From: Pyxicephalus adspersus
Taxonomy: Eukaryota; Chordata; Amphibia; Anura; Pyxicephalidae
NCBI RefSeq assembly: GCF_032062135.1
Contig: NC_092859.1
Coordinates: forward strand, 63,347,599 to 63,411,598
Reading direction: 5' to 3'
DNA length: 64,000 nucleotides
Below, piece after piece: positions 3,056-46,096 of this stretch; the first letter of the stretch is position 1; each line of letters opens with the position of its first letter. The translations under genes and the position numbers were made by a program. Below the pieces are notes generated by a model. The model was given only the letters and a program-made list of their open reading frames with translations. It searched no databases and was not told the origin of the DNA.

Positions 3056-4262
3056 GACTCACTGGCCAACCAAGATGCCTCTGTGATCCCAGACTGCTCC
3101 TGTGCTGGAGTCTTTGGCTGCCTTTCACCAAACATCCTGTCAGCTGAGCCTGCCTCGGTTGAATTTTTCCGCTAGTTATCGCAACGTCCAGGGGTGGCAT
3201 TCATCGCCAGTGTCATGCCTGCTCTTGTGCCAGCTAGCAATTTACTTTACATTTTTGGTGCTTTCGAGAGGCCAAAAAACTGCAGATAAAAACCCCCAAT
3301 ACTGCCACACTGATAGGTACCCTTGCCTTTGGCTAATTTTTCAGCCAAGTATTGTAAGATTGAGGGTAGGCAGTCATGTCATCCACTTATTGATGCAAAC
3401 TAGCAATATTATCTACCTTCCTAGCGCTTCTGGCACCACAGACCACAGAAACGCTGCTGGTGCACAGAACATCTTGGTCTGGCCCTTCTACGTTTAATCA
3501 CAAATTTCATCTATTTGCACTACACACTTCGGGTTGACATTATTATTATTATTATTATTATTAATAATAAACAGGATTTATATAGCGCCAACATATTACG
3601 CAGCGCTGTACATTCAATAGGGATTGCAAATGACAGACTAATACAGACAGGGATACAGGAGGAGAGAACCCTGCCCCGAAGAGCTTACAATCTAGTAGGT
3701 GGGGGAATTTCACACACAATAGGATGGGAGATATGTAGTGGTGGGAAGTAGTGGTGGTTTCAAAAGACAGAAGAAGACGGGTAGGCAAGTTTGAAAAAAT
3801 GGACATTGACGATGCACTACACCCAGCTCTAGATGCCAATTATGAATTCCATCCACGCTCCGTCTCAGGATTCACCGCATGCTCCTCCTGCTGTTGTTGG
3901 TGCCGCCTGCCCAGTACTCCATTCACAAAAATTGTATTACACACTTCTGGGTGTCATTGACGATGCACTACACTCAGCTCTAGATGCCAGGTACAAATGC
4001 GGTCCACGATCCGTCTCAGGGCCCACCGACTCCTGCTAATGCTGTTTCTGCTGCCGCCTGTCAGTACTCCATTCACTATATTGTATTACACACTTCTGGG
4101 TGTTATTGACAATGCACTACACCCAGCTCTAGATGTCAGTCACCAATGCGCTCCACGCAATGTCCCAGGGCCCACCACCTCCTCCTGATGCTGTTGCTGC
4201 TGCTGCCTGTCAGTACTCCACCCAGCTCTATATTTGTATTACACACTTCTGGGTGTATTATT
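3056..4262 (+). mobile_element. hAT-derived fragment with tandem units
   Basis: Matches the transposase-downstream part of the hAT element at 40706-47674: ACTCACTGGCCAACCAAGATG here corresponds to about 44265, and both continue through the AACGTCCAGGGGTGGCATTC stretch into the CTG/CCTCCT-rich tandem unit (about 3800-4240, three units around GCACTACACCCAGCTCTAG). The left edge abuts R1 exactly, so R1 insertion or a deletion removed the transposase part. No right terminal repeat is visible. A 3538-3745 insert-like segment belongs to another dispersed repeat. Confidence 0.75.
3538..3745 (+). repeat. (ATT)n plus TTTATATAGCGCC dispersed repeat
   Basis: A (TTA)n tract is followed by AACAGGATTTATATAGCGCC, ATATTACGCAGCGCTGTACA and GAGCTTACAATCTAGTAGG. 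The same opening occurs near 45983-46060 and 47239-47310, with a decayed form near 39470-39555. I recognise it as a repeat seen widely in frog genomes but cannot assign a family name. Confidence 0.7.
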
Positions 4263-8896: not shown

Positions 8897-8904
8897 TTTG
8901 GGAC

Positions 8905-8925
8905 TAGTGTTGGTCGAATAGCTCA
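8905..8925 (+). repeat. hAT left terminal inverted repeat
   Basis: TAGTGTTGGTCGAATAG directly after the TTTGGGAC duplication, followed by further TTCGA motifs to about 8995. Confidence 0.9.
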
Positions 8926-9384
8926 CTATTCGATTCGACAGCTTTTCGGTCGAATAATGCATAATTATTGGGTGATCGAACGTCGAATTCGAACTCCATT
9001 AAAGTCGAAGGGGGAAAAATTTGGGTTGATTTTCTGGACTGTGTAGAGCTTCTACAGCCTATAAATACATTTAAAAAGATGCGTCAAGACTCCCCCAGCT
9101 CTACACAACACTGTACAAGTAAAAAAAAAAAATAAGGAAGTATTTTTTCTGTTGGCAAGGCCATTTTAAGGGGCAGTCAAGGGAACATGCCGAGTTTTAT
9201 ACGGTCTCCGAGTAGAGGCAGAGAGGGACATGAGGGGGTTCCTCTGGTCCAAAAATTAGCCACCAGGTTTCACCGCTCGGTTACAAGCCATACACATGCT
9301 TCAGAGTACAGGCAGAGGTTTCTGAGTCAAAAAAGTAAAAAAATTAGCCAGCTAGAAAGCTCTGTTATAAGTTACAAGTGACAG

Positions 9385-11430
9385 GTGGCTCAGGGCCCAC
9401 CACCTCCTCCTCATGCTGTTACTGCTGCCGCCTGCCCAGTACCCAGCTCTAGATGCCATTTACTAATGCTGTCCACGCTCTGTCTCAGCGCCCACCGCCT
9501 CCTCTTCCTGCTGTTCCTGCTGCACGCCCCAGGCTTAATCAATATGAGCCATCAGGATGCAGGTATACTTCCGATGAGCCAGCTGATTTGAGTGGGTGGC
9601 ATCTTTAACCCTGGAGCGCAGCTCGAAGCGTAAGTGGAAGTGCATGTCAATCACATCCAATTGGTGCAAATCTGCCAGTGTGGCACTGTAGAAACTCCCA
9701 TCTATGATGTCCCAGCCTACATTAGGAATTGGGTACTCTAGTACTTCACCAGTTTGAATCCCACAGACATGGACATGTTGCATATCACCAGACATTTGGG
9801 GCTCAGCACCTCCGAATAAACAGATGGTCCAGATTGGTTTTGTACATTTGCAGTGATTGCTCATGATACCTGATAACATCCTATTTACACGAGTTGATGA
9901 TGACAATGTCCGGCTGAGGTCCATGTTGGAAGATAGCCAGCACACTCTGTGTACGAAGAAACACGGGTCAGGAAATAGAAGCGTACAAGGTGGTGGTCAG
10001 TTCTGTAATGACGCACTTGGCAGTAAATTGTGCATTTCACCCAGAGATCCCCCAACGTGTCGTTTCCAAATGACATCTCACCCTTCCCTTTCAGCTGCTT
10101 CTCAGTCCGAAACAGAGCGTGGACGGCATTAGTATCTGGCATCTAGAGTTTGTTACTGTGCAGGCGGCAGCATCATTTACAGCAGGAGGAGGAGGCGGTG
10201 GGCTCTGAGACCGAGTGTGGACGGCATTAGTATCTGGCATCTACAGTCGGGTACTGGGCAGGTAGCAGCATCAGTTACAGCAAGAGGAGGAGGCGGTGGG
10301 CTCTGAGACGGAGTGTGGATGGCATTAGTATCTGGCATCTACAGTCGGGTACTGGGCAGGGGGCAGCAACAGTTACAGTAAGAGGAGGAGGAGGCGGTGG
10401 GCTCTGAGACGGAGTGTGGACGGCATTAGTATCTGGCATCTAAAGTTTGTTACTGGGCATGCGGCAGCTTCATTTAAAGCAGGAGAAGGCGGTGGGCTCT
10501 GAGACGGAGCGTGGATGACATTACTATCTGGCATCTAAAGTCGGGTACTGGGCAGGCAGCAGCATCATTTACAGCAGAAGGAGGAGGAGGCGGTGGGCTC
10601 TGAGACGGAGTGTGAACGGCATTAGTATCTGGCATCCAGAGTTTGGTACTGGGCAGGCGGCATCATCATTTACAGAAGGAGGAGGCGGTGGGCTCTGAGA
10701 CGGAGTGTGGATGGCATTAGTATCTGGCATCTAGAGTTTGGTACTGGGCAGGTGGCAGCAACAGACGGCAAAAGGAGGAGGTGGTGGGCTCTGAGACGGA
10801 GTGTGGACGGCATTACTATCTGGCATCTAGAGTTGGGTACTGGGCAGGCGGCAGCATCAGTTACAGCAAGAGGAGGAGAAGGAGGCGGTGGTCTCTGAGA
10901 CGGAGTGTGGACGGCATTACTATCTGGCATCTAGAGTTTGGTACTGGGCGGGCGGCAGCATCATTTACAGCAGGAGGAGGAGGAGGCGGTGGGCTCTGAG
11001 ACGAAGTGTGGATTGCATTAGTATCTGGCATCTTCAGTCGGGTACTGGGCAGGCGGCAGCATCATTTACAGAAGGAGGAGGCGGTGGGCTCTGAGACGGA
11101 GTGTGGATGGCATTAGTATCTGGCATCTACAGTTGGGTACTGGGCAGGCGGCAGCATCAGTTACAGCAGGAGAAGGAGAAGGAGGCGGTGGGCTCTGAGA
11201 CGGAGTGTGGACTGCATTAGTATCTGGCATCTAGAGTTTGTTACTGGGCGGGCTGCAGCTTCATTTACAGCAGGAGGATGCGGTAGGTTCTGAGAAGGAG
11301 TGTGGACGGCATTAGTATCTTGCATCTAGAGTTGGGTACTGGGAAGGCAGCAGCAGCAGTAACAGCAGTAGTAGGAGGCGGTGGGCCCTGTGACAGAGCG
11401 TAGACCGCATTGGAGGTTGAGGCCATCACC
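9385..11430 (-). repeat. CTG/CCTCCT tandem array inside the hAT element
   Basis: At least 12 head-to-tail units between about 10125 and 11430, spaced about 97-103 bp. Each contains GGCGGTGGGCTCTGAGACGG, AGTGTGGACGGCATTAGTATC and TGGCATCTAGAGTTTGG. An isolated part-unit lies at 9385-9530, on the far side of the PC-esterase fragment. The same unit, longer (about 124-147 bp), forms the arrays at 44690-45990 and 3800-4240. Open frames of 60-90 codons in it, such as 10670-10930 minus, are array artefacts rich in Leu/Pro/Arg. Confidence 0.9.
9531..10125 (-). pseudogene. Captured PC-esterase (PCED1/FAM113-like) gene fragment
   Basis: Decayed fragment of a host-type gene encoding an SGNH/GDSL-fold PC-esterase domain of the PCED1 (FAM113) family. 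Reading leftwards: KQLKGKGEMSFGNDTLG (about 10110-10060), LGEMHN (about 10040), DHHLVRFYFLTRV (about 10000-9958), a DIVIINSC-like segment in another frame (about 9905), then WDIIDGSFYSATLADLHQ and LDVIDMHFHLRF (about 9715-9625), and AHRKYTCILMAHI followed by AWGV (about 9570-9525). These follow the family's order, ending in the C-terminal His-containing block (D-x2-H-x3-H in the parent fold). At least two frameshifts break it and part of the middle is lost. Both edges join the tandem array unit directly, without a poly-A tail. It is gene-derived but non-functional. The family assignment is from remembered motifs; no search was run. Confidence 0.8.
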
Positions 11431-11519
11431 TCTATGGACAGTGTAGAAGCTGTAGCTAATTGAAATATCAATGGATTATTGAAAATCACACTTTCCATAC
11501 CTACTATCTAGTGAAACCA

Positions 11520-13560
11520 CATAAAAGGGAACGGACTTGGTGGAATCCGCGGGGAAATACATACATTTTTTATCATTTGTGGATATCTAGCAAGTGCTAT
11601 CACGGTTAAATACCTGTTTTTGTTTCACAAAAATACATACATTTTTATGGGTTTTAGGATACATACCAAGTGTTTTCAGAATGAAATATCTATATTTTTT
11701 GGAGAAAAGTATAACATTTTTTATGGCCTTTTGGATAGATATCAACTACCAAGTGCTATCAGTATTAAATATCTGTAGTGTTTGTAGAGTAATAAACCAA
11801 TTTTTATGGCTTTAGGGATATATAGCAAAGTGGGATCAGAACTAAAGATCTGTATTTTCTGTAGAGAAATATAGAATTTTTTTATGGTCTTTTGGATCAA
11901 TACCAAATGCTATCAGAATTAAATATCTAGATTTTTGGGAGAGAAAAATAGAAATTTTTATGGCTTTGGAGATATATAGCAAAGTGGGATCAGAATGAAA
12001 TATCTGTATTTTTTTACAGAAATATAGACATTTTTAGTTTTTTTGTTATAGATTTCAAGAGGTTTCCTAAATTATACCTCTTGTAATATATCACAAAAGC
12101 CAGACAAATTTCTATATTTATCCATAAAAAATACAGATATTTCATTATGATAGCACTTAGTATCTATCCAAAAACCCAAATTTTCTTTATTTCTGTAAAA
12201 AAAAATACAGATATTTAATTCTAATCCCACTTGCTATCTTTCTAAATAGCCATGAAAAATATGTATTTCTAAAATATACTGATATTTAATTATGAATCAT
12301 AATTAAATATCTGTATTTTTTGGAGAGAAATACATACATTTTTGTGACTTTGTTGATAGAAAGCAAGTTGTAGGCTGAATTAAATATCGGTATTTTTTGG
12401 AGAGAAATACAGACTTTTTTATGGCTTTTTTGATAGATGGCATGTGGTATCAGAATTAAATATCTGTATTTTTTTTACAGAACTACAGAAATTTTTATGG
12501 ATTTTTTTTTATAGATAGCAAGTGGTATCATAATGAAATATCTGTATTTTTTTTACAGAAATACATAAATCTTTCTGTTTATTTTGATAGATTGCAAGAT
12601 TTATCATAATTTATGCTAACTCTTGCAATCTATCAAAATAAACAGAACCTTTTCTGTTTTCCTTTAAAAAATTACAGATATTTATTAAATATCTGTAATT
12701 TTTTACAGAAAAGCAGTTAGCATAAATTATGATAACTCTTGCAATCTATCAAAATAAACAGAAATATGTATGTATTTATGTAAAAAAAATACAGATATTT
12801 AATTCTGATACCACATGCAATCTATTAAATAAACAGAAACATTTCTGTATTTCTGTAACAAAATATAGCTATTTAATTCTGATACCACTTGCTATCTATC
12901 AAACAAGCCATAAAAATGTCTGTATTGCTGTAAAAAAAATACAGATATTTAATTCTGATACCACTTGCAATCTATCAAAATAAACAGAAACATTTCTGTA
13001 AAAAAATACAGATATTTAATTCTGATACCACTTGCTATCTATCAAAAAAAGCCAAAAAAATCTATTTCTGTAAAAAAAAATACAGTTATTTAATTTTGAT
13101 ACCACTTGCTATCTATCAAAAAAGCCATAAAAATGTCTGTATTTCTATAAAAAAATAAAGATATTTAATTCTGATACCACTTGCGATCTATCAAAATAAA
13201 CAGAAAAATGTCTGTATTTCTGTAAAAAAATACAGATATTTCATTCTGATACCCTTGCAATCTTTCAAATAAAACGGAAAAAATTCGGTATTTCTGTAAA
13301 AAAAAATACAGATATTTCATTCTGATATCACTTGCTATCTATGAAAATAAACAGAAAAATTTCTGTATTTCTGTAAAAAAAAATACAGATATTTTATTCT
13401 GATCCTACTTGCTATCTATCAAAAAAGCCATAAAAACTTCTGTATTTCTCTAAAAAAATACAGATAGTTATTTTTGATACCTCTTGCTATCTATCCAAAA
13501 GGACAGAAAAATGTATGTATTTCTCTACTAAAAATACAAATATTTAATTATGAATCACAC
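11520..13560. repeat. AT-rich tandem array with orientation switches
   Basis: Units of about 75-90 bp containing TACAGATATTTAATTCTGAT, ACCACTTGCTATCTATCAAA and a poly-A stretch. From about 11520 to 12060 they run in one orientation, from 12060 to 12290 reversed, from 12290 to 12600 forward again, and from 12600 to 13540 reversed. At a switch point near 12664-12710 two 19-base arms (ending CAGATATTTA) are perfect inverted copies around one base. The same unit type appears at 41080-41510 in the other large hAT element. Non-coding. Confidence 0.9.
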
Positions 13561-13794
13561 AGCTCCATTACAAGTGATATAGACCTCAAAGTAGATAGAG
13601 GCAGAGGGCCCTGAGGGAGGTTCTCGGTAAAAAAAATTAGCCAGTTACACAGCTCCAACAACACAGCTACAACAACAGTTATAGACATCAGAGATAGAGT
13701 AGAGATAAAGGGCCACTAGGGGGAGGAGTAGAAGGAGATGCTGAAGGCTGTGAACGTGCTCTTCCCATCAAGGTGTCTGTGCAGCAGTTGACGA

Positions 13795-16700
13795 CTAATC
13801 AGTACACTCTGCAGAGGTGGTGTTGAAGTCATTGCCGATCCAAGCCTCATTCATTTTAATAAAAGTGATTCGGTCGACATTTTCTGCGGAGACCTGAATC
13901 CATTTGTCACTCACTATGCCCCCAGCTTCACTGAACGCTCTTTTAGATAACGCACTTGCGGCTGGGCAGGCAAGGATCTGAATCGCATGTTCTGCCACCT
14001 CCAGCCACTGCTCAAGCTTGGATACCCAGTAGCCCAGTAGGTCCTGGCTTTGCAGGTTGCATATGTCCCATGCAGAGCTCAGGTATTTCTGCACCATGAC
14101 TGAGCACCGCTGCTGAGTGTCATTGGCAATTGCTGCACGACTGGCACCTTGCTTCCGCTGAAAACAAGCCTGCATAGTTTTGCTTAGGCGACCTCTACTG
14201 CTGCTGCCACCCATGCCGCTAAAAGCAGTTGTTTGGCTTCCATGGCTGGTGGAACTGCCATAGGGATCCCTGCTGCTGCTGCTGCAGGCAGCCGGAAAGG
14301 CTGAGCACAAGTCCCTTAAAAGCACTTCTTGGCAGTGCTGCATTTTAGGTCCCCTGTATTGGGGCAAGATCAGTTGTTGTATCTCAGGCTTGTAACGTGG
14401 ATCTAGTAATGTAGCAATCCAATAGTCGTCATTCTTTGTTTTTATGTGTTGTATGCGTGGATCTTTGGCTATGCACTCCTGCATGAATGCTGTCATGTGT
14501 CTCAAACTACCCACAGCTGAGGTAATTCTGGACCCACACTCCTGTGGGTCGAACAGCAGCACAGGGTCGTCCTCCTCCTCCTTTGCCTGGTCTTGCCATC
14601 CACGAAACATGCCGCCTTGTGGTTGGGTGGATGGATGCCATGTACCCTCAATATCCTCCTCTGCCCCTTCCTCCCCTTCTCCCATGCCTGCAATGTCCTC
14701 TTCATCCTATTTCACATCCTCCTCTTTCTGGATTTGTGGTGCACTATGCCTAGTAGGCACGCATGTCTGAGATGATGTTTGAAACATCATCTCTTGATGC
14801 AGCGTCCGCTCTGTGTTGTGTCCGAGATCCATCATCATCTGTTCCAGCAGGCATATGATGGGGATGGTGTCACTGACACAGGCCTGATCTCTGCTGATCA
14901 TCCTGGTGGCCGCTTCAAAAGGTGACAATACAGTGCACAAGTCCTCAATTTGCAGCCACTCCGCAGGGCTGAAGAAAGGTAGTGTAGGTATACGTCTGAA
15001 ACGAACAGACTCTGCCACGTAATCCACCACTGCTTTCTGTTGTTGAGCCAGCCGCTGCAGCATGTAAAAGGTGGAATTCCAACGTGTGGCCACATCACAA
15101 ATTAACCGGTGCACTGTCAGGTTGAGATTTCGCTGTAAATCCACCAATCTGGCACTGGCTGTGTACGACCGGCGGAAATGCGCTGACAACTTTCTGGCCT
15201 TCAGCAACAGCGGCTGGAGGCCTGGGTAATTCCTAAGGAAGTGCTGTACTATCAGGTTCATGATGTGAGCCAGGCAGGGTACGTGTGTCAGTTTCCCACA
15301 ACGCAGGGCTGCTAGCAGATTGGCTCCGTTGTCACACACGACCTTGCCTGGCTGAAGTCTGTTGGGAGTTAGCCATATGTCCTCCTGCTCCCACAAGGAA
15401 CTTAGATTGGCTGCGCCAGTGTGGCTGAGGGAATCCAGGCTTCGCAACCTCAGGACTGAGTGGCAACGTCTGAATTGTGCACTGAAATAGCAAACTGCAG
15501 GTTGTTGCTGGTGGTGAACAGATGCTGCTGAATGGGAGGTGATGGGTCTCCACGGCAAAGTGTCCCTGGAGGAACAGGTTGAGGCGCAAGATTCAAAGGA
15601 GGAGGTGGAAGTGGAGGTTGAGGAGGAAATTGCATGTCGATGTGCTCTGGGCAGGAAAGCAGGATAGGAAATATATCTTCCCACTCCATGCTTGCTCGAC
15701 CAACTGTCGGTTGTCAGGTGCAGCTTGCCAGAAATTGAGTGCTGCAGGGCCATGGACGCATTGCTCTGCACGTGTTCATGCAAAGCAGGAACACATTTTT
15801 CTGCAAAATACTGTCGCTTAGGCATAACCTACTGCAGAGGAATGTGTAACGGAACGCATTGGAGTCCACCAGCCAGTAAGGGAGGAGCTCTAACGCAATC
15901 AGCTGTGCAATTGCCACATTGATTTGCTTTGTTTTGGGGTCATTTGGGCCATATTTCCTCTCGCGCTCCAGCATCTGGGAGATGGAAGGTTGGATGCTGC
16001 TAATGCCAACCACAGAAAGATTGGATGATGGGGTAGAAGTTGTTGGGGATGGCAATGATGCCTGGTCTTGAGTGCTAGCAATGCGACAAACAGCAGCCGA
16101 TCTGCATTGGAGCTGCTGCTCACCGCTGGTGGAGCCTGAAATAGGTAATGCTCAGCTACATGCCCCACTCAATTTGCTGGCAGCAGCATGGGTAACTTTG
16201 GTGTCTGAAGGAGGAAAGGCAGCTGAGGAAGATCGAGCAGTTTGAGCTTGCTTCTTGGGCGGAGGTGGTCGCACAGAGCTCTGTGCTTTCACCAGGTGTC
16301 CCCGCCAGGTTACCGAGTGGTGGCTTTTAAAATGAGTGCTCATGCAACTTGTTCCAAGTTTGTTTGGGTTTTTGCCTCTTTTCAAGTGTTGAGCACACAG
16401 TTTGCAGATGACCATAGTGTTATCATCACTATGGACACTAAAAAATGCCCACATGGACGAACATCTAACTGAGCCGAAAGGTGCTCTGGAGCTGGTGCTC
16501 GTCGTGGCAGTCCGCAGTTGTTGAGGCACAGCTGTGGTGACAGCTTCCGACGATGGGCAACTGACACTGATACGTGAAGTCTGCGGAGTGTGGACAGCTT
16601 TTACTCTCTTCCTCCCTCGCCCCCTTTGAGGGCGCTCTGCAACCTCCTCCTCCTCTTCTTCCTGTCTATGATGATCACCTTGTTCACACCATGTCGGATA

Positions 16701-17231
16701 AAGGACATCATTATCATCATCAGAAGGGACAGTTTCCCTATATGTGCCGAAAGGAAGCAGCGGCCTTTTGTAGCCGGTTTGAATTGGCTCATCTGGCTCA
16801 GAGTATTCTGGTGAAAAGTAAGTGGGGGGAAAGCCTGTGAACTGACTCTCTTTGTCAGATGACTGAAGCAACTGAGCATCTTGAAGGAATGCTTGTAGCT
16901 CCGCCTCTCCAACCCCTCGGTGGGACAACTCTACATAGTGCTGTACATGTGAATTTCCAGCCGCTGATGAAGAACTAGGAGGAACAGGTGTATCATGGAC
17001 TGTTTGGGACACCTGTAAGGCCTATGTCTGGGACTGGGATGAAGAGGGGGTACAATCACTTGACCCAGGTTGGGTCATGTACTCCACTACGTCTTGTTCA
17101 TAGTGTGGCAATAATGGACGCCCACCACCAACAGCAGCGCTTCTTGTTCTTGGGTCTGCAGCTGAAAACAAACTCATACTGCTTTGCTTGCCACCCCTGC
17201 CAAAGCTGCCCTTTCCTCTTTGGCCAGACAT
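13795..17231 (-). pseudogene. hAT transposase with BED zinc finger, decayed
   Basis: Coding remnant of about 1,145 codons starting at ATG 17231 (MSGQRGKG). The acidic/Ser-rich N-terminus is followed by a BED-type zinc finger at about 16460-16290 (MWAFFSVHSDD, CKLC, then HFKSHH, giving CxxC...HxxxH). The RNase-H-like catalytic region shows LTTDSWSSKHG (about 15720), VCDNGANLLAAL (about 15345), CLAHIMNLIVQHF (about 15280) and DVATRWNSTFYML (about 15100-15065). The C-terminal dimerisation block reads LACPAASALSKRAFSEAGG (about 13970-13920) to SAENVDRITFIKMNEAW. Breaks: TAG at 17022-17024, TGA at 16152-16154, a frameshift near 15840, and TAG at 14707-14709 between otherwise same-frame segments. 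The rest of the frame is well kept, so the decay is fairly recent. The final stop is at 13795-13797. Confidence 0.92.
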
Positions 17232-17895
17232 TGTAGAAAGTTTTTTGTGTGGCTTGACACCCTGCAAAATACTTTGTAGCCAATATGCTATATGTATATC
17301 TAAATTTGTACAGTAAGTGAATTTTTTGATTGGGGGGAGGGGGGTTGACACAAAAAATGCAAGTGCGCTGTGTGTGTTGTATGCAGTACTTTCCTTCAGT
17401 GGTGATGGTTGTAATATGCAGCACAGTATACAAAATATTTACTGCAGTATACACTGCATCTGTGTGTCTGTTTCTCAGTACAAGTGTGATACTGTGCACG
17501 TAGTCAGCGAGGGGACCCTGCCTCTGGCTGCTTGTATGTACTGCTTGCTTGTACACACTGACTGACTATTTATCTATCTATCTAACAGTGAAACACTCTA
17601 CCTATCTGAGTACAGTAGATTTCAGGACTGCACCAATACAGTACAATCCAACAATCTATCTGACTAATATTGTAAGTGTGACACAGTCTAAGTAAAGCAC
17701 TTTTTTTCACTTTGACAAAGCAAGCCAAGCAGCATAGAAAGGTTGTGATGCTAGCAAATCTCTGTCAGGAGTGGTAAACGCAGGCACCCCCTGGCCTTAT
17801 ATAGGTCAATGGCTGCCTGTGTGGAATCCAGCAAAATTCGGGTTGGGTCCACCCGAATTCGAACGGTCATATTCAGGTTGAACATTAGGATGACC

Positions 17896-17916
17896 CGAAT
17901 TCGAACAACAACACTA
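17896..17916 (-). repeat. hAT right terminal inverted repeat
   Basis: On the minus strand this reads TAGTGTTGTTGTTCGAATTC and precedes the second TTTGGGAC copy. A further CGAATTCG pair lies at 17865-17900. Confidence 0.9.
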
Positions 17917-17924
17917 TTTGGGAC

Positions 17925-20018: not shown

Positions 20019-23000
20019 TTAAAATTCTTTATTGGTAAGATGGGCAGGTTTAAAATGGAGAAGGGCCAACCATGGATCCCTGGGAATATATAATTTGAAC
20101 ATCCCATTCAACAATTTAAATACTCTGCCCCAGAATCGAATAACAAAGGGACACATCCACCAAATATGCATAACCGTTCCTTCTTCCTGGCACCCCCTAA
20201 AACATAACATAAAAAATGTTTCAGTCCAGCAGGTACCATGTACCATCTGAACATAACTTTAAATGCAGATTCAGGGGTTGTAATATTTCTTGAAAGGGAA
20301 GCAATTTTGACCCATGCACAGTGCCACTCTTCCGTTCGCTTACCCCTCAGGTCACGTTCCCAGTCAGAAACATATTTATGAGATCAGGGATTTCCCAACC
20401 GGTTTAGTTCATTATAAATAAAGAGATCTGTTTAGGGGCTAACGGTGTCCGTAGACAAATATGCTCTAACAATGAAAGCCGCAGAGAGCAATCTTTCTGT
20501 TGGATTAGGGACAGAATCCAGTGTCGTAATTGCAAATACCTAAAATACTCCCTACCTGGATCATCATGGTTACACGGGTAACATTCCAGCTAAGGACTCC
20601 TGATCTATCCAACAATGAGTATACAGTGGGGTAGTGATGTGGTAGTGGTAGTGATAGCAATTAAACACACTTGGTGATTCCCAATCTGGAAGAAACATTG
20701 GATTATTTTGAATCGGGAGTAGAGGGAGGGAATGAGACATAAGTCCACTGGAGTATCTAAGTCCATCCCAGCACCTAAGCATATGCCACAAATGTGGTGA
20801 TAAGTTTGGGGGTCTTAGTTTCCATAGAACCGCAAAGATGTTGTCCAATTTGGACCCACAAGGGTGCCCCAGACCCAGCATGTAATGCACAGATAGGGGC
20901 AATATGGCTGGCTTGGAAATATTTTATTATATTGGGAACCTCCAGGCCACCAGAATTCTTATGAACAGTTAAAGTTTCTAGGAGATCTGCGATTTTTTAC
21001 CATTCCAAACAAAATATATTATCGATTTTTGTAGATCCCGCAAATGCTTAATAGGGACAGTTATCGTGAGTGTTCGAAACAGATATAGCAACTTGGGTAA
21101 CAATGTCATCTTAATAGAGTTAGACCTCCCTATCCATGACAGTGGCAGATTTGTCCACCTAGATAGCATGTCTTTAAGATTGGAGAATAAAGGTTTGAAG
21201 ATGGCCTCGTATACCTGGTCATATTTCCATGTGAGTTTAATACCTATATAGTCAAGAGAGCGATCTGCCCATTTAAATTTAAACAAACCCTGGAGACTAG
21301 CGAAAATAGATGGGGTCAGTGTGATGTTCATAGCCATAGATTTCTCCTCATTAATCACCAATCCCGACACATGGGCAAATGCAGATAGGAGCTTCACCAA
21401 ATTTGGAAGGGAAACAGTAGGTTGAGTGGAAGTTAGCAGAATATCATCACCAAAAAGATTCAGTTTGTACTCCATGCCACATACATCTCTTCCGTGGATG
21501 TTAACATTAGATCTAATTTATTGAGCCAGAGGTTCCAGGGCCAATATGAAAAGTATTGGCGACAGGGGGCAACCCTGTCTCGTGCCCCTGTTGATAGGGA
21601 ATGGGGAGGAATAGTAGGACGTACTCTTGTGAATGGAGAGGAGTACAAAGCAGACATCCATGCCATAAACTGCGGTCTGAAACCCCACCTCGTAAGTATA
21701 TAAAATAAATAGTCCCACAAGAGAGAATCAAATGCCTTTTTTTTCATCCAAGGCTAAAAGCATACTGGGAATATTTTCGGAGCAGGCTATGTGTAACAAA
21801 TCAATAATTTTCTTTGTGCTATAAGGAGCTTGTCTACCCGGCACAAAGCTTACCTGGTCCTTAGGAATCAAAGAAGGCAGAAATACATTCAATCTCGTGG
21901 CCGGTATTTTTGTTAAGATTTTATTATCCAGGTTTAACAGGGATATGGGTCTGTAGTTATGGGGGTCTAGTTCATCCCTCCCTGGTTTGGGTATCAATGA
22001 TATATGAGCCAAAAATGACAAATGGGAATGTTGAGGGTGACTCTTTAAACAATGAAGAGCCAGATGATCATGAAATTTCTTGTAATAGAGTACAGAAAAA
22101 GCCATCTGGCCCTGGCGTTTTAGAAGCTTTCAGAGATTTAATAGCTTTTTGAATTTCCGCTATCGTTATATCGGATCCAAAACATTACACATCTCACTGG
22201 GAAGAGTGGGAAGATGCATCTCTGTAAACAACTCAGTTGCTCGAGAAACTGAAAAGGCCATCTGAGAGCCATACAAAGTAGACAGTATTTCCCTAGAGCG
22301 CTCCACAATAGAGGGGTTCGCCGTACCTGTACCATCTGCCTGACGCAATCTAACAGGTTTGAATCCAGGCTTGTCATTAAGCAATCTGGTCATCATAGAA
22401 CCAGGTTTGTTAGCATGTGCGTAAAATTTCTGCTTAGACCAGCGAAGTTGCTTTTTAACCTGGCTATCTAATAGAAGATTGAGTTCCGTCCGCGTTTGTT
22501 GGAGTGATTTGTAAACTTTTTTTATCAAGCGAAGCTTTCCATCTATATTCAAGTCACTCCAGAGAAGTAAGGGCAGAAATCCTTTCAATTCTCACTTTTA
22601 TGTCGAGAAGCTATCTGTATGAAATTACCCCTAATTGTTGCCTTGTGAGCATCCCACAGTGGAATAGATGAGTCCACCAAATCAGCATTTACTGCAAAAT
22701 AATGAGAAATATGATCGCCCAGTGTGACCACAGCTTTAGGAGAGGACAACATGGCGTCATTCAAACGCCGGTGAAATTCTGGTGATCGGGGAATTAGAGA
22801 GTCACAAGCCATCAGCACTGGAGAATGGTCAGACCAAGGGATCGCCATAATCTTAGAGGACGCTACACAAGGCAACAATTGCTGGCGGACAAAGATATGA
22901 TCGATCCTCATAAAACTGTTGTGGGAGGAAGAGTAGTAAGTGAAATCTTTTGAGGTAGGATTGAATTCTCTCCACGCATCTATCCATTGCTGACCGGATA

Positions 23001-23529
23001 GGAGTTCAGAAAATTGTTGAGATTGCAAGAGGATCGGTCCTAATTGTCCCTGATTGGGAGATGATGATTTATCTGGGTTACCAATAAAAACCAGGTTAGT
23101 ATCGGCCATAAGTAGGAGAGTGCCTTTTGTATGTGTAGCTATGACTTTAAATAAATGCCTAAAAAAGGGAATCTGATGGACATTGGAGGCAAAGTAGTTC
23201 ACAATAGTGAGTTCCATATCAAATAAGTGGCCATGTAATAACAAATAGCGACCTGTAGGGTGTGCAATTTCTGTAGTACATTGAAAAGGCGTGTTTTTGT
23301 AAAGGCTATAAAAAACTCCTCTCTTCTTTTCTTGAAAACTCGCTAGATAAATTTGTGGAAACTTCTTGTGAAAATATGAAGGCTGGGAAGAATGAGAAAA
23401 TCTTGTCTCTTGTAAACAGAGGACATTCGCATTCAGGGAGGCATAGTAATTGAATGCTTTCCTCCTCTTTTGTGGGGAGTTAAACCCTTGAACAATATGT
23501 GTGACAATCACACATTTCTCAGTTTGCAT
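20019..23529 (-). pseudogene. L1 ORF2: endonuclease and reverse transcriptase, broken
   Basis: The APE-type endonuclease (23529 to about 22800) shows LNANVLCLQETRF, then LLLMADTNL, FTYYS and SDHSPVL, the histidine motif that closes the fold. The linker QVKKQLRWSKQKFYAHANKPG at about 22480 (longer L1 linker truncated here by quotation) leads to the reverse transcriptase: HISLIPKPGRDELDPHNYRP and ISLLNLDNKILTK (about 22010-21920), [12 protein letters not shown] (about 21735), [15 protein letters not shown] (about 21580) and the active-site motif LFGDDILL (about 21455), where FGDD stands for the usual YADD/FADD. The C-terminal Cys/His block CFRGCQEEGTVMHIWWMC lies at about 20200-20150. Several frameshifts and stops (22585, near 22160, near 21720, and between 20978 and 20250) make it non-functional. 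Confidence 0.85.
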
Positions 23530-24135
23530 GGTAAGATGTACAAGAATAAAGAATATACAATCAGATAGCATGCAAATTGTAATTTGAACATGAACTCTAA
23601 ATTTGATATGTATCACACAGACAGACCAAAAACATGGGCAAAATAACCAAAAATTAATAAAAAAACTTTGTAAAAAAAGGCCGAAGCCCACAGGTCTCTA
23701 GTCAGAGACCCATCCTGTAAAGACAGGTAGCAGGCAACCAATACAGCATCAATACAGCATTGCCTAAAAAAGGAGAGGCACTCAACACACCTGGGCAGGT
23801 GTTGCACTACTGAAAGAGACGGCAAGTATTAAAGAACAAATTAAAACACTTGAACAGGGTATCCTTCTATAAAACACACATTTGTGCAAAAAAATTTGGC
23901 ATAACATAACAGCAGGTAAAGATAACATGCATCTTTAGGGTATCAGTAATAAAAATTACATTGCATAAAAGACCCACTAGCAGGATACCGTATAAAGTAC
24001 TCAGGGAACCACTCAGTTCCTCTAGGATCAGAGATAAATCACATGTAAAGGAGGGGATCCAGCATTTCAGTCCTAACAAAAGGCTAAGTAATGTTTCCTT
24101 GGTTGCAAATAGTGTGAAGAAGGGCTTTTCTGACG

Positions 24136-31028: not shown

Positions 31029-32216
31029 ATGGAGCCAAGGAGAATGGCCACCACCACCATCGCTGCTGCTGCTGCCGGCCCCGCCACCACCACCACCCCA
31101 GGGATTCAGTCCATAGACCAACAGGCATCTCCCTCAGGCCAGCTAGGTTGCTCTGTGAAGCAGGCCAAGTAACATCTAGGCCCCTGGCCCCTCCACCTTG
31201 CACCTCAGCCAGTTTGAGCCAGACCAGGGATTCTGCTTCCAAGGCAATCAGCTTTCACTCCTGAGCAAAATGCAGCCCTCATGGAGTCCTACGTACAACA
31301 TTTTACACGACTCCATGGGGGCTTGCACACCCAGACCTCCAATGCTGTAAGGCAGGGACTCTGGGAGGAAATTGCCAGGAGTGCAAATGCAGTGGGCAGT
31401 ACACATGGGACCATTACCCAGTGTCAAAAACGTGTGAGTGACATCTTCAGACACATCAAAAGGCTCCTGGGCACAGAGGCCGGAAGGAATGGGACCTATC
31501 ATGAACATCTTGTGCAGTGTGTCAGGGAGTATGAAAGATTGGCATTGCCATTCATTGGGCCAGATATGGTGGTAGGGGCGGACTACCGGGATGACTCCAA
31601 TGCTTGGCAACCATGTAAGTTCAATTTTTGTACATGACCTAACTGGGCTTCCTCCTGGTAAGATCAACCTTCATGGTATATCTTGTTTGACATTGTGCAC
31701 ATGTCTCTAATCATGTTTATAACCACACTCGTGTAATCGTGTGCACTCGTGTAATATGTTTAATAACACACATTTTTTGCTCTGGGAGGTGGTATGTTTT
31801 GTGGTAAGATTTGTGGTCTAACATTTTGTCTAACATTTGTGTATGTTCTAATGTCAGGATGCTGTCTGCATAATGTTATGGTGACCCACAAAGTTATGTG
31901 ATATTGTAGTAATTTTTTATTTTTCCTTTATAGCAACCAGTGGATGCAGGTGGATTGGGTCAACCCAGTGTGGGCAGGTAGCTTCTAAGCCTCAACTCAG
32001 AGGCTGGTTGGCCATTTTGATAGAGTAGTGGAGTCAAGGATGTCTGCCCCAAATTCAAATAATTTGGAACCGGTCCTTGCGCTCCTACATGAAAACCTCA
32101 ATCAAAATCGCCAGGACCGAGAATTTAACCAACAACATCTGGCGGCCATGCATCTTCTGATAGAATCAGTCCAAGAACAATCGGCCACTTTTGGGTGCCT
32201 ACATGTTAAGAGTTGA
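31029..32216 (+). pseudogene. Harbinger Myb/SANT-like DNA-binding protein, broken
   Basis: Second protein of PIF/Harbinger elements, which binds the element ends and partners the transposase in the nucleus. Exon A: ATG 31029 (MEPRRMATTTIAAAAAG), in-frame TAA at 31170-31172 and a TGA near 31215, then the Myb/SANT-like domain RQSAFTPEQNAALMESYVQH (about 31239), LWEEIARSANAVGSTHGTIT, CQKRVSDIFRHIKRLLG, and IGPDMVVG at the end. A donor follows at about 31615 (CATGTAAGTT). Exon B opens after TTTATAG at 31933 and contains LLHENLNQNRQDREFNQQHL and LLIESVQEQSATFGCL, a helical C-terminal region. It ends at 32214-32216. All parts of exon A are in one frame, so the two stops are the main damage. Confidence 0.75.
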
Positions 32217-35222: not shown

Positions 35223-37002
35223 ATGGCATCCAAACGACATCACGCGGTGCAAGCGCTGTTTTGGAGGAATTTGAAAGCAGCTATAGTGATTTGGAGTTCC
35301 TTGTGGAATGGAGTGATAGTGATTCACCAGGAAATTTGTCATTGGACCGCGAAAGTGAACTGAGCGACGATTCTGAACCTGTGTGCGTGGTGTCCTATTG
35401 ACCTTGATGCGGACCAGGCAGCACCCCCAAGATTTCCATTTACCGGCGCACCTGGGATTAAAAATTTAGGCTGAATGCGACAACCCCCTGGCATACCTGA
35501 AGTTGTTTTTGACCGATGAAGTTATCGAAAAAATTGTTGCGGAGACAAACAAGTAAGCCGCTCTTGTGTTTGCTAACTTTTTGAAATTTTTTGCTAATTT
35601 TTTTTGCCAACATGTGTGCTGCTCTGTGCTAACTTTTAAAAATTTTTGCTAATTTTTTTTTGTTGCCAACATGTGTGCTGCTCTGTGTTTGCTAACTTTT
35701 TGAAATTTTTTGCAAATTTTTTTTTGCCAAAATGTGTGCTGCTCTGTGCTATCTTTTTGAAATTTTTTGCTAATTTTTTTTCCAACATGTGTGCTGCTCT
35801 GTGCTAACTTTTTAAAATTTTTTGCTTTTTTTTTTTTTTTTTTTATGCAAACATATATGCTGCTCTGTGTTTGCTAACATATTACTTGCCACCTTCACAC
35901 TATAAAAGAACAAATCCTAAAATACTTTTTTTTTTGTTGTTTTATGCAGGTATGCTGGACAACAACAAGGTGCTCCACACCTGAGGTTTGCAAAAAGCAG
36001 AAAGTGGGAACCTGTGACAAAGGATGATATTTGGCTGTTTTTGGGCTTGGTGATCCTGCAGGGAGTTGTGGGCAAACCTGTGCAGAAGTGGTACTGGTCC
36101 AAGAACAAAATGATTGCCACTCCATTCTTTGGCACAGTCATGCCAGAATACCGCTTTTCCTTCATCATGAAGTACCTGCACTTTGCAAACAATGAAGAAT
36201 TTGATGAGACTACCCATACTGCAACAAAAATTTGGGAAGTATCTCAGATTATTCTACAAAATTTTCAGCAAACTAATGTGCCAGAAAGAGCATTTCTCAG
36301 CATTGACGAAAGTCTAATGGCTTACAAGTGGAGGCTCAGCTGGGTGCAGTTCAGGGAAGCTGAAGACAGGAGAAATTGCTGCCTGGCAGAAAGGAAAGAT
36401 GATGGCCCTAAGATGGCATGACAAGAAAGATGTGTGCCTGTTGAGTACTGTCCATGATGCCTCCACCGTTCTGGAACACACAAAACGTGGGAAAGAAGTG
36501 ATGAAGCCACAGGTGGTGATTGACTACAACAACACCATGGGAGGTGTTGACAGAGCTGACCAAGCCATGACATTCTACCCAGCGATGAGGAAACAGCAAA
36601 GGTAGTACTACAAGAAGATTTTCAGGCATCTTTTTGAGCAGTGCCTATGGAATGCCTACGTTCTGTACAAAAAAATCAGAGGCCTGTGAATCATTCAGAC
36701 TTCATTTTGCAAGATTCTGAATCCATAGTCAAGAAACACCATCAGTGGCTATGAATAGACCTGGACGTCGTGCTTCCACCATTGTCAACCCAGAACACCT
36801 AACCGGTCGTCACTTTGTTGAATACATCCCACCAACCCAGAAAAAGGCAGCACCTACAAGGATGTGCGTGGTTTGCTGCTCAAAGACTGATGACAGAGGA
36901 AGGAAGAAACGCAAGGAAACCAGGTTCTACTGTCCTGACTGTGATGTTGGGCTTTGTGCAGCACCCTGTTTCAAAATGTACCACACCAGGCATGACTACT
37001 AA
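35223..37002 (+). pseudogene. piggyBac transposase, copy B, broken by deletion
   Basis: Exon 1 (35223-35552) has a 1-base loss near 35243 and further small losses near 35385, so it is not open. Exon 2 (35950-37002) starts YAGQQQGAPHLRFAKSRKWE and contains WLFLGLVILQGVVGKP, FFGTVMPEYRFSFIMKYLHF and the first catalytic aspartate in LSIDESLMAYKW. After SWVQ it loses about 280 bp compared with copy C and resumes at REAEDRRN in a shifted frame, so the second catalytic aspartate block (TDNFF) is gone. The third block VVIDYNNTMGGVDRADQAM is kept. A TAG at 36603-36605 and a shift near 36690 precede the C-terminal Cys-rich zinc domain (CVVCCSKTDDRGRKKRK, FYCPDCDVGLCAAPC), which ends at 37002. Non-functional. 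Confidence 0.9.
35553..35949 (+). repeat. Minisatellite intron of piggyBac copy B
   Basis: GTAAGC at the 5' end (here AAGTAAG) and TTTTATGCAG at the 3' end. The body is about six AT-rich units of about 60 bp with GCTAACTTTTTGAAATTTTT and a CAACATGTGTGCTGCTCTGTG-like stretch, as in copies A and C. Confidence 0.85.
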
Positions 37003-41079: not shown

Positions 41080-41510
41080 ATACAGATATAGCAGTTCTTG
41101 ATGCTACCTGTTCCTGTGTACCAAAGAAGCCAGTTTGCTACAGAAAACTTTGTCCTACTGTAAAAAAAAATACAGATATTTCAGTGTTTGATACCCCTTG
41201 CTATTTAGCAAAGAAGACTGGTAAAAAAGAATTTCTGTCCTACTTTAAAAAAAACCCAGATATTTCAGTGTTTGATACCTCTTGTTATTTACCAAGGAAG
41301 ACCGTTTGGTACAGAAAAAAAAATTTCTGTCCTAATATGTAAATCAGATATTTCAGTGTTTGATACCTCTTGCTATTTAACAAAAAAGACTGGTTAAAAA
41401 AAAATCTGTCCTACTATTTAAAAATACAGATATTTCAGTATTTGATACCTCTTGCTATCTCAGTATTTGATACCTCTTGCTATTTACCAAAGAAGACCGT
41501 TTGGTACAGA
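41080..41510 (+). repeat. AT-rich tandem array, five units
   Basis: Units of about 85-90 bp with TACAGATATTTCAGTGTTTG, ATACCTCTTGCTATTTA and CAAAGAAGACTG. Clearly the same unit type as at 11520-13560. The 147-codon frame across 40899-41342 is produced by the array. Confidence 0.9.
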
Positions 41511-41514
41511 AATT

Positions 41515-43960
41515 CATATCAACTTCCTATCCTCCACTATTTTCTGTGACATTCTCCCTGTATTCTGGTCAGACCATGATGCAGTCTTCTTGTCTGTATC
41601 CTCTTTATATGACCGACCAAGGGAGTTTTGGTGGGGTCTTACCGAGTCGATATTGAGTGACCCTGACGTGACCTTGGAGATTGGTAATGCCTTGAAAGAT
41701 TTTTTTTTGGTAAATGACAATGGTGCAGTCTCTATGAGTACATTGTGGAACGCACATAAAGAGGTCATATGGGGCCACTTTATACAATTGGCTACCCGGA
41801 AAAAAAGGAGAAGGCAGGCTTTGATGAAGCAGTTGGAAAACGTAGTTCTGAATTTGTTTACCCAATTCAAAGCCACCCCTACTCCTTCTTTGCGAAAACA
41901 ACTCGATAAAGCTAGACAAGAATTAGATATATGTCTTTTGGACCGGGCAGACAAGCAGATTAGGTGGACCCGTAACAAATACTACACCAAGGGCAATAAA
42001 CCAGACACTATGTTGGCCAAGAGGTTGCACTCTGACTTTAGAGATTTTAGACCCTATAGATTGCATATACCTAATTCTGGCCCGTCCAGCCATCCTGTCA
42101 AGATTCTAAATGAATTCCATACGCACCTACTTAAACTATATGAGGCACATGATATTCATACCCCTGAAAAGATACACACTAAACTGCAGAATATTAACCT
42201 CCCACGCATACCTTGCACTCTCTCCTAGAAACACCCATAACACACGCAGAAGTCCAACAGACCGGGCCCTGATGGTTTTTCTTCCTTGTATTATAAAAAG
42301 TTTTCTGAACTGCTTGCTCCCTGACTTTGTAAAATGTTTTAATCAACTACTAACAGGGAAGTCCTTCAGGTCAGACACTATCAGCAAACAATTGTATGCT
42401 ACCCAAGCCCAATCTGGACCATAGCACCTGGTCAAACTATAGACCAATTTCACTTTTAAATTTGAATGTGAAATTATTGGCGAAAATCTTGGCCACCCAC
42501 CTCAACACTGAAATTGTCAGTTTAATAGGTGGTAAGCAAGTTGGGTTTATACCTCAATACCATGCCGGGGACAATGTCCGCAGTTTGCTTCACCTTATAC
42601 AGCTGGCTAAAGATAGGCAAAAACTGGCAATGCTACTGTCCCTAGACATTCGTAAGGAGTTTGATATGGTGTCCTGGTCATATCTTTTCACCCTTCTTGA
42701 TAAGTGGGGTTTTGGCCCCAATTTTCTATGCTGGGTTTAAGCTTTATACACAGAGCCCAGGTGATATATGCGGGCTTTCATTTAGCTTATTTCCCGATTG
42801 CCAGGGGTACGCGTCAGGGGTGCTCACTATCCCCTTTGCTCTTTGCTTTGGCCATAGAGCCTTTGGCGTTACTGATTAAGTCGAACCTGGATATTACGGG
42901 ATTGGAGGTTGGTGGATACCACCATGAGTTAAGTCTCTTCCCTGATGATGTAGTCCTTTCTCTCACAAACCCTGTAATCTCTCTCCCTAATCTCGTTCAA
43001 ATACTCCTATCTATTTCTGCTCTCTCTGACCTGTCGGTTAACTATTCCAAGTCTAGGGCTCTTAATGTTTCACTTACCCAGGAAATGCAAACCTGCCTGC
43101 AGGCCAACATTTTATACAAATGGGAAACATTTATATTGACCTACTTAGGTATCTTCCTCACAGTGTCATATGAAACAACGTATGCTGCCAATTATTCTTC
43201 CATTTTGGGATCTATCAGGGCAACTCTGGAGTCTTGGAAGAGGTATCATATTTCTTGGCTTGGTGGGATTGCAGCCCTGAAGATGACGGCTCTTCCAAGG
43301 CTTCTGTACCTGTTCTGGGTTCTCCCAGTAGCGATACTATCACGTATAATACGCTCCTTGCAGAGTTTGTTCTCGGAGTTTGTGTGGCAGGGATCCAGAC
43401 CTAGGGTAGAAAAACAGATTTTGTACAGACATAAAGCCTATAGAGACCTGTCTTTGCCTAATATCCTGTACTAATATAGGGCGGCTCAATTGGCCCCTCT
43501 AGCTGCATTTCTTGCTAAGCCTTTATGGGTGGATTTGGAAGCCCACTTAATATCTCCAATCGCGTTGGAAACCCTACACCGTTTCCATACACAGCTAGGA
43601 AGGTTTCTAGCCCTATTACGCAACACTCTATGAAAATATATGATGATGTTAAATATTCTGGTGCTCTGATGTCCCTGCATACCCCACTGGCTACCATAAT
43701 CTCGCTTTAGCGAGTGATTGACACGAGATATCTTCAGGGCTAAAGACTTCACTGTAGCCGGCGGGATCAGGTCCTTTTCGACCTTCAGATCTAAATTTGA
43801 TACGCCCGCCTCCTGTGTATTCTCCTATCTGCAGATGCGACATTATGTTCAGTCTTTACTTAAGCAGACCCACAATCCATTGTCGCACACCAATTTTGAG
43901 GGGAAGTGTGATAGAGGCCCATTGGGTAAGGGAACTATCTCTGTAATCTATAACTCTAAC
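41515..43960 (+). pseudogene. L1-clade ORF2 fragment inside the hAT element
   Basis: Starts at the end of an endonuclease domain (FWSDHDAVFLSVSSLYDRP), then a linker (DKQIRWTRNKYYTKGNKPDT) and reverse transcriptase blocks: NYRPISLLNLNVKLLAKILA (about 42440), LLSLDIRKEFDMVSW (about 42640), ARGTRQGCSLSPLLFALAIE (about 42800) and LFPDDVVLSL (about 42940), in which FPDD replaces the active-site FADD/YADD. Downstream thumb-like and C-terminal segments follow (GGIAALKMTALPRLLYLF; SKFDTPASCVFSYLQMRHYV at about 43795-43850). Frameshifts occur near 42230, 42735 and 43475, with several stops after 43630. It lacks the endonuclease N-terminus, the terminal Cys/His block, a 3' UTR and a poly-A tail, so it is truncated at both ends. 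Confidence 0.85.
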
Positions 43961-43983: not shown

Positions 43984-44215
43984 GTGGATGCCTGTCCTGA
44001 CAGTAGTGACACAATTCATTTTTGGATCAACAGGCTTGAAATCTGCCCGCAGTCGGCACAGTATGCCATCAAGCTTCCTTCGTACCCGGCATCCAGTGTT
44101 CTGTCCGAAGAAACCTTCAGTGCCGCTGGCGGAGTGGTAACGGACAACCAATCACGACTGTCGCCGGAAAATGTCAATCGCCTCACGGTTTGAAAATGAA
44201 CGAAAGGTGGCTTAC
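43984..44215 (+). pseudogene. hAT transposase C-terminal fragment
   Basis: The hAT dimerisation block: HFWINRLEICPQSAQYAIKL, then PSYPASSVLSEETFSAAGGV and LSPENVNRLTV. It matches the C-terminus of the transposase at 13850-14060 in order and spacing. Everything upstream (BED finger and catalytic core) is missing, replaced by the L1 fragment. The frame stops just after TV, so it is a relic. Confidence 0.85.
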
Positions 44216-44689
44216 TAACAACTATCATTTCCCCACTGCAGATGTCACTGATTGACTGACACAAGTACTCACTGGCCAACCAAGATGCTTCTGTGAACCA
44301 ACACTGCTCCTGTGCTGAGTCTGTGGCTGCTTATCACTAACACGCTGTCAGCTGAGCCTGCCGCGGTTTAATTTTTCCGCTAGGTATTGCAACGTCCAGG
44401 GGTGGCATTCATTGCCAATGTCATGCTTGCCATTGTGCCAGCTAGCAATATACTTTACATTTCTGCTGCTTCTAGGAGGCCGATAAACTGCAGATGAAAA
44501 CCCCCAGTACTGCCACACTAATAGGTACCATTGCCTTTGCCTAATTTTTCAGATAAGTATTATAAGATTGAGGGTTGGCATTCATGTCATCCACTTCATG
44601 ATGCAAACTAGCAATATCGTCTACCTTCCTACCGCTTCCGTCACCACAGACCACAGCAACAGTGCTGGCGCACAAAACATCTTGGTTCG

Positions 44690-45990
44690 GCTCTTCACAA
44701 ATTTCAGATATTTGTATTACACACTTCTGGGTGGCATTGACGATGGACTACACCCAGCTCTAGATGCCAGCTACCGTCTCGGGGCCCACCGCCTCCTCCT
44801 CCTGCTGCCGCCTGTCAGTACTCCATTCAATAAAATTGTATTACACACTTCTGGGTGGCATTGACGATGGACTACACCCAGCTCTAGATGCCAGCTACCG
44901 TCTCGGGGCCCACCGCCTCCTCCTCCTGCTGCCGCCTGTCAGTACTCCATTCAATAAAATTGTATTACACACTTCTGGGTGGGTGCCATTGTCAATGCAC
45001 TACACTCAGCTCTAGATGCCAGTTACCAATACGGTCGCCACTCCGTCTTAGGGCCCACCACCTCCTCCTTCTGCTGTTGCTGCTGCCGCCTGTCAGTACT
45101 CCATTCACTAAAATTGTACACTGTGGGTGGCATTGTCAATGCACTACACCCAGCTCTAGATGCCAGTTACCAATGCTGTCCATGCTCCATCTCAGGGCCC
45201 ACCACCTCCTCCTGCTGCTGCTGCCGCCTTTCAGTGCTCCATTCACTAAAATTGTACACTTCTGGGTGGCATTGATGATACACTACACCCAGCCCTAGAT
45301 GCCAGTTACCAATGTGGTCTCCGTCTCAAGGCCCACCGCCTCCTCTTCCTGATGTTGCTGCTGGCGCCTGTCAGTACTCCATTCACTAAAATTGTATTAC
45401 ACACTTCTGGGTGGGTGGCATTGTCAATGCACTACACCCAGCTCTAGATGCCAGTTACCAATACGGTCGCCGCTCACTAAAATTGTACACTTCTGGGTGG
45501 CATTGATGATACACTACACCCAGCCCTAGATGCCAGTTACCAATGTGGTCTCCGTCTCAGGGCCCACCGCCTCATCCTCCTGATGTTGCTGCTGCCTCCT
45601 GTCAGTGCTCCATTCACTAAAATTCTACACTTCTGGGTGGCATTGACAATGCACTACACCCAGCTCCAGATGCCAGCTACCAATGCGGTCCATGCTCCGT
45701 CTCAGTGCCCACCGCCTCCTCTTCCTGATTTTGCTGCTGCTGCCTGTCCGTGCTCCATTCACTAAAATTGTACACTTCTGGGTGGCATTGATGATGCACT
45801 ACACCCAGCTCTAGATTCCAGTTACCAATGCTGTCCCCGCTCCTTCTCAAGGCCCACCGCCTCCTCCTCCTCCTGCTGCTGCTGCCTCCTGTCAGTACTC
45901 CATTCACTAAAAATGTACACTTCCGGGTGGCATTGATGATGCACTACACCCAGCTCTAGATGCCAGTTACCAACGCCGTACAGGATTTAT
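44690..45990 (+). repeat. CTG/CCTCCT tandem array, nine or ten units
   Basis: Units of about 124-147 bp, each with ACTACACCCAGCTCTAGATG, GGCCCACCGCCTCCTCCT and CTCCATTCACTAAAATTGTA, then CACTTCTGGGTGGCATTG. The first two units (44711-44958) are almost identical, so array growth was recent there. Open frames across it are by-products. Confidence 0.9.
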
Positions 45991-46096
45991 ATAGCGTAAA
46001 CAAATTATGCAGCTATATAAATTAAATAGGGGTTTGTACATTAAATAGCAGTGTCATCCAGGTCATGATGCCAGCTAGCAATTATTATTATTATTA

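Follow-up and report, generated by a model that had tools for sequence, protein, structure and literature searches.

A hAT transposon of the African bullfrog (Pyxicephalus adspersus) lineage very probably took up an intronless piece of the host gene PCED1A, after which the chimera appears to have multiplied to dozens of genomic sites. The copy described here lies in a 64-kb stretch of genomic DNA, referred to below as the window, in which a decayed PCED1A piece of about 200 codons, spread across three frames, is encoded on the minus strand at 9523–10112, inside a hAT element of 9,012 bp (8905–17916). The evidence supports a real gene capture by the hAT, and apparently a high-copy one, as the same piece recurs in predicted proteins of this frog.

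The PCED1A fragment and its hAT carrier

The fragment, intronless and frameshifted, reads from FRTEKQLKGKG... to ...AWGV. Its parent gene, PCED1A (FAM113), is one that we take to belong to the SGNH/PC-esterase class. Five peptide blocks that an initial annotation had quoted for this locus are all present on the minus strand in the claimed order, in different reading frames; the minus-strand locus stands, but the proposed extent of 9531–10125 gives way to one nearer 9523–10112. Nine PCED1 proteins (eight from frogs and one human isoform) were searched against the full window with tblastn, and a single PCED1 locus was detected at E ≤ 1e-3, with a best E-value of 7e-44 for the Mixophyes protein P0005 and the weakest, 1.7e-12, for the human isoform. 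The assignment to PCED1, which the annotation had drawn from family features, is borne out by this translated search, frog PCED1A giving the best matches. The seven longer frog proteins match from 10106–10121 down to 9523, the Nanorana model, which is without an N-terminus, begins matching at 10076, and identity in the 3′ part of the fragment is 46–60% over all nine queries. Chance resemblance is ruled out, as the best scores of the real fragment were 59.7–111 bits against 25.0 for the top-scoring of 200 dinucleotide shuffles, none of which came near. One further homology search, not relied on here because its query carried an added human N-terminus that inflated the E-values, also ranked amphibian PCED1A and short bullfrog proteins high.

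The first 41 residues of native PCED1, comprising the GDS-bearing N-terminus, were not found anywhere in the window, and the 64 kb hold no second copy of the fragment. Presumably GDS and HW are motifs of the functional PCED1A enzyme; the window copy stems from the same source family as that enzyme but has no GDS-bearing N-terminus, carries a replacement of the W of HW and is broken into several frames with stops, so its reading frame is not intact. Its longest open reading frame matches no Pfam family, and two of three PCED1 proteins scanned against Pfam matched NXPE4_C weakly, below the cut-off. A PDB search returned nothing meaningful (best E of 0.023, to NLRP3, taken as chance), and Rfam gave no matches.

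Flanking the carrier element is a perfect 8-bp target-site duplication, TTTGGGAC (8897–8904 on the left, 17917–17924 on the right), so that the fragment lies between matching hAT ends as initially proposed. The left terminal inverted repeat (8905–8924, plus strand, TAGTGTTGGTCGAAT...) and the right one (17897–17916, TAGTGTTGTTGTTCGAAT... read on the minus strand) share an identical TAGTGTTG and are imperfect beyond it; the terminal motif searched for occurs in the window solely at the ends of this element. Encoded on the minus strand at 13795–17021 is a decayed transposase, delineated by Pfam and alignment, with a BED zinc finger (PF02892, 1.2e-08) and a hAT dimerisation region (PF05699, 7.7e-08), both above the cut-off. 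Aligned with three hAT/ZBED-like proteins of frogs, it shows approximately 40% identity across some 700 columns, and its homologues, 47 matches from 8000 candidates scored, are mostly from frogs where named, none being named Pyxicephalus. The 8-bp duplication, the short terminal inverted repeats and a transposase with hAT dimerisation and BED domains place the element in the hAT superfamily. Stops at 14707 and 16152 and a frame change near 15828 interrupt the transposase, and this hAT copy is therefore dead.

Within the element, a main tandem array of about 13 units of roughly 95–100 bp occupies 10113–11411 on the plus strand, and approximately 1.3 units in the opposite orientation (9389–9522, minus strand) adjoin the PCED1 piece at its 3′ end, where piece and unit overlap by CAGCA or so (read by eye). 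As the initial annotation had stated, the fragment abuts hAT tandem units on either side with no poly-A (also read by eye); a point absent from it is that the units on the two sides are oppositely oriented. Beyond the main array are AT-rich 75–78-bp repeats with large inverted arms (11576–13553), the arms including 12503–12833; these repeats recur some 28 kb away at 41140–41460, with ~67–74% identity.

Two further stretches of the window resemble parts of the carrier. At 44002–46000 a related hAT has a transposase C-terminus on the plus strand, 46–51% identical to frog hAT proteins over 63–72 residues, and behind it an array whose units are ~77–88% like those of the main element; this related hAT, at 44.0–46.0 kb, holds no PCED1 and is a useful contrast to the main element. 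A short array of main-element units at 3821–4233 is apparently the remnant of a third related element. Other mobile sequences in the window comprise transposase pieces at 50162–51111 and 187–696 (PF13843, DDE_Tnp_1_7, E of 4.7e-31 to 3e-15), a family that we take to be piggyBac-like, an open reading frame at 35921–36421 similar to such pieces, and one at 31218–31637 with a Myb/SANT-like domain (PF13873, 5.4e-08), which we assume may derive from a Harbinger-type element.

Missing introns and the probable route of capture

The fragment crosses, without introns, several exon borders that were deduced from skipped-exon isoforms and odd gene models of human, orangutan, macaque, camel, Ranitomeya and Pelobates, some of them predictions. 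In human isoform 3 and an orangutan isoform, ...QLKAK is joined straight to YLEDV; a macaque PCED1A model is missing a segment that begins at LQPLAG and runs up to the residues preceding HRHRDG, and a camel PCED1A model is without VWNMAMPLGERITGGFLLPE. Other sequence is joined to K|GEFTF in the Ranitomeya PCED1A model and near RYNF in that of Pelobates. The window fragment spans 590 bp, against roughly 618 bp of matching coding sequence (residues 45–250 of P0005). Missing introns had been put forward as making capture from RNA likely, and because the deduced borders inside the fragment are indeed crossed without an intron, the source was, judging from the sequence, most likely spliced, either RNA or a retrocopy.

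Processed pseudogenes are intronless copies of multi-exon genes. The window copy is like them in being intronless, but it has neither a poly-A tail nor a target-site duplication of its own, its edges abut hAT units (by eye), and a DNA transposon appears to have carried it. A straightforward retro-insertion bearing poly-A and a target-site duplication was considered and rejected, neither feature being seen around the fragment. A less direct version of that route is the strongest of the alternatives, although we regard it as unlikely: a LINE could have retro-inserted PCED1A mRNA into the hAT array, with the poly-A tail, the target-site duplication and the 3′ end deleted later, and the hAT would then have spread the cargo with no capture by repair. 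Such an origin would account for the lack of introns, and the endonuclease and reverse-transcriptase remnants in the window mean that the machinery existed, but besides the missing poly-A and target-site duplication it has to contend with flanking units that are oppositely oriented and broken at different unit phases, an arrangement not expected had the cargo simply been inserted among head-to-tail units. The remnants in question, of LINE type, lie at 22585–23697 and 42704–43474 (PF03372, 5.4e-08, endonuclease; PF00078, 1.1e-08, reverse transcriptase) and are a possible sign of retrocopying activity.

We favour acquisition by the hAT itself. Intronless PCED1A would most likely have entered the element via template switching during break repair or replication within the tandem array, for which an array-rich element like the 9,012-bp hAT would be well suited, and a retrocopy (or spliced RNA) would have served as the template. 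Cut-and-paste movement driven by the transposase, acting on each copy, would then have multiplied the chimera, leaving PCED1 pieces at what may be dozens of genomic sites, several of them with a common PCED1/array junction.

Copies among bullfrog gene models

At least 35 distinct Pyxicephalus adspersus proteins, the union of the best 120 of 436 matches and all 54 matches of a second search, carry the PCED1 piece, and at least 34 of these are short and fragment-like. Copy number is here a count of gene models, of which some short ones could be parts of one locus; adjacency within a model stands in for DNA sequence, and genome order was not deduced from the order of accessions. The expectation that several insertions share the fragment is thereby borne out as gene models of this one frog.

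The junction between PCED1 and the hAT unit, at 9523 in the window, is spanned as far as 9466 by five of the 35 models (P0017, P0020, P0039, P0107 and P0127), counted as tblastn alignments crossing from 9523 to 9466, and all five end in ...QHW. Two of the 35, P0122 and P0124, hold the tandem unit in another frame, with P0124 aligning up to 9523; together with the five, these are the models in which a multicopy capture is seen, at the protein level alone. A strict regular expression for the junction string finds four of the 35 (P0017, P0107, P0124 and P0127), P0020 and P0039 varying in that string. One model, P0126, runs from PCED1 into the left subterminal region of the hAT (8973–9100, minus strand, by protein alignment), with 84% identity over 25 residues at 9047–8973 and a further eight residues at 9100–9077 that are not significant alone; the order and strand of PCED1 and hAT are the same as in the window. 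At the level of predicted gene models, the PCED1/hAT chimera is present at several bullfrog loci.

A native-PCED1-like start is present in 25 of the 35 models and absent from the window, so the window copy differs in structure from these, and it or its subfamily has probably lost the native start. In P0035, PCED1 is joined to the antisense of the transposase region (91% over 35 residues, window 14818–14922), an arrangement opposite to that in the window; perhaps the cargo was flipped between inverted units, or the model spans two elements. P0026, P0065 and P0122 have a common upstream MTT-L/M-SHE start, for which no convincing counterpart was found in the window.

A tree was built with 41 rows, comprising the window, 28 of the 35 Pyxicephalus models and 12 further PCED1A sequences, ten of them from named frogs. 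Each of the 27 fragment-like models in it covers no fewer than 70 columns of a common set of 115. Of the tree's 38 inner branches, 22 are weak, and the midpoint root was drawn for display. The 28 bullfrog rows and the window split from the 12 other PCED1A rows with support of 100/99. Placed outside the remaining bullfrog copies is P0050 (97/87), followed by P0017 and P0122 and then by P0107 (97/85), and the window groups with the other 24 bullfrog rows, nested inside the Pyxicephalus copies (98/92). PCED1A genes are present in other frogs, and in the bullfrog the model adjoining the fragment copies in the tree, P0050 (377 amino acids), is the sole full-length one among the 35 listed; since its GDS motif no longer has the serine, P0050 may not itself be the intact parent. 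The tree fits one capture followed by successive rounds of amplification, and it suggests Pyxicephalus or a closely related frog as the origin of the window. Segmental or tandem duplication of one hAT-plus-PCED1 locus, in place of transposition, is an improbable source of the Pyxicephalus copies: some models have closely adjacent accessions and so may come from neighbouring loci, but the 64-kb window holds one copy, with its own perfect target-site duplication and both terminal inverted repeats, and the copies form nested subfamilies.

Many of the copies have the same defects as the window. A 160-bp stretch with GT...AG ends (9881–10040, minus strand) spans a frame change and a stop, and across it seven of the 35 models make a GDLW|DVIR jump; six more models jump to the nearby YHE. 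Since the window region that is jumped (10040–9881) covers both the frame change and a W-to-stop change, and GDLW is out of frame relative to native PCED1 in the models as in the window, gene prediction programs seem to have placed an artificial intron there, thereby getting round a defect common to models and window. Sixteen of the 35 terminate in HI[DEKV], at the point at which a stop follows HID in the window. Of the 35, P0050 alone matches the conserved HW motif, and at least 23 have it altered. Defects common to so many copies argue that the cargo was broken before or during its spread and was not needed as a protein; it was probably already a pseudogene when many of the copies formed, and on the available evidence it most likely travelled as a passive passenger, not as a new gene.

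There is a slim chance that the chimera, having arisen by repair in the array templated by a spliced transcript or retrocopy, still makes RNA (transcripts or small RNAs) able to act on host PCED1A. Slimmer still is the case for cargo kept for its action, whether by targeting host PCED1A as a small RNA or antisense transcript or by yielding a shortened chimeric protein with an array-encoded tail: such a C-terminal tail is predicted alike in the five junction-spanning models, and the cargo was retained in nested subfamilies, but the out-of-frame peptide, the stops and the lost conserved residues are common to the copies, and the models jump over the broken part. That a native PCED1 gene or pseudogene at this site was invaded by hAT sequences is scarcely credible and, for the window, refuted: apart from proximity nothing speaks for it, whereas a search for such a gene detected neither an N-terminal part nor, at E ≤ 1e-3, any further PCED1 sequence in the 64 kb, the fragment is without introns, and the same junction occurs in several bullfrog models.

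Relation to known captures

Movement of host genes by DNA transposons is a textbook theme of plant genomes. For animals, the part of the survey by Tan et al. (2021, PMC8277862) drawn on here describes 370 Pack-TIRs in 100 genomes, 208 of them hAT; four are multicopy (three in Xenopus tropicalis and one in alligator; 1.4% by the survey's count), and one frog multicopy case given there, hAT-N8_XT, carries 291 bp from the 5′ UTR of CAPSL and occurs at three sites. The initial proposal of gene capture by a vertebrate hAT therefore stands, but animal hATs are on record for this more often than it stated, with 208 hAT captures and a frog case among them in these passages of the survey, though only four captures are multicopy (PMC8277862). 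The bullfrog element has host gene sequence between the ends of one terminal-inverted-repeat element with a target-site duplication, as a Pack-TIR does, and it is like the animal Pack-hATs of the same passages in having hAT ends and a target-site duplication around a host gene piece and in having a multicopy frog counterpart; it differs in that its cargo is coding, apparently spliced and found in at least 34 gene models, and that the element has a transposase remnant of its own (PMC8277862). The survey pipeline, as set out there, kept internal sequence of 100–5000 bp between two TIR transposable elements and discarded intronless captures of multi-exon genes, so that the window cargo would fail this filter, a matter of filtering and not of mechanism (PMC8277862).

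The nearest precedent, going by the excerpted account, is a fungal one: in Pseudocercospora fijiensis and relatives a hAT took up a histone H3 transcript or retrocopy and is present as hundreds of inactivated copies (PMC6710886). Common to both is an intronless cargo captured by a hAT and then amplified; the fungal case involves another gene and inactivation by RIP, and the frog case, with decay by frameshift and stop, is its vertebrate counterpart (PMC6710886). Plant Pack-TYPE elements likewise shuffle gene fragments between DNA transposon ends, but in the portion of that source used here they are described as non-autonomous (PMC8903248), whereas the frog element retains a decayed transposase at 13795–17021. 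As a further case, the MER6 DNA transposon is reported to have spread a SINE domain (PMC6887750). Among the matches listed in the open-licence PMC literature, no report of PCED1 captured by a hAT was found.

The animal survey, in the part considered, holds mostly single-copy captures, and intronless cargo was thrown out by design (PMC8277862); from the present case it seems that this excluded class includes a vertebrate family of high copy number. The public bullfrog proteome also appears to contain some three dozen probably spurious proteins that stem from PCED1/hAT copies. The case would join retrocopying, from RNA to DNA, with cut-and-paste amplification, and its nested subfamilies, common defects and junctions make the timing and mechanism of capture testable from the existing assembly.
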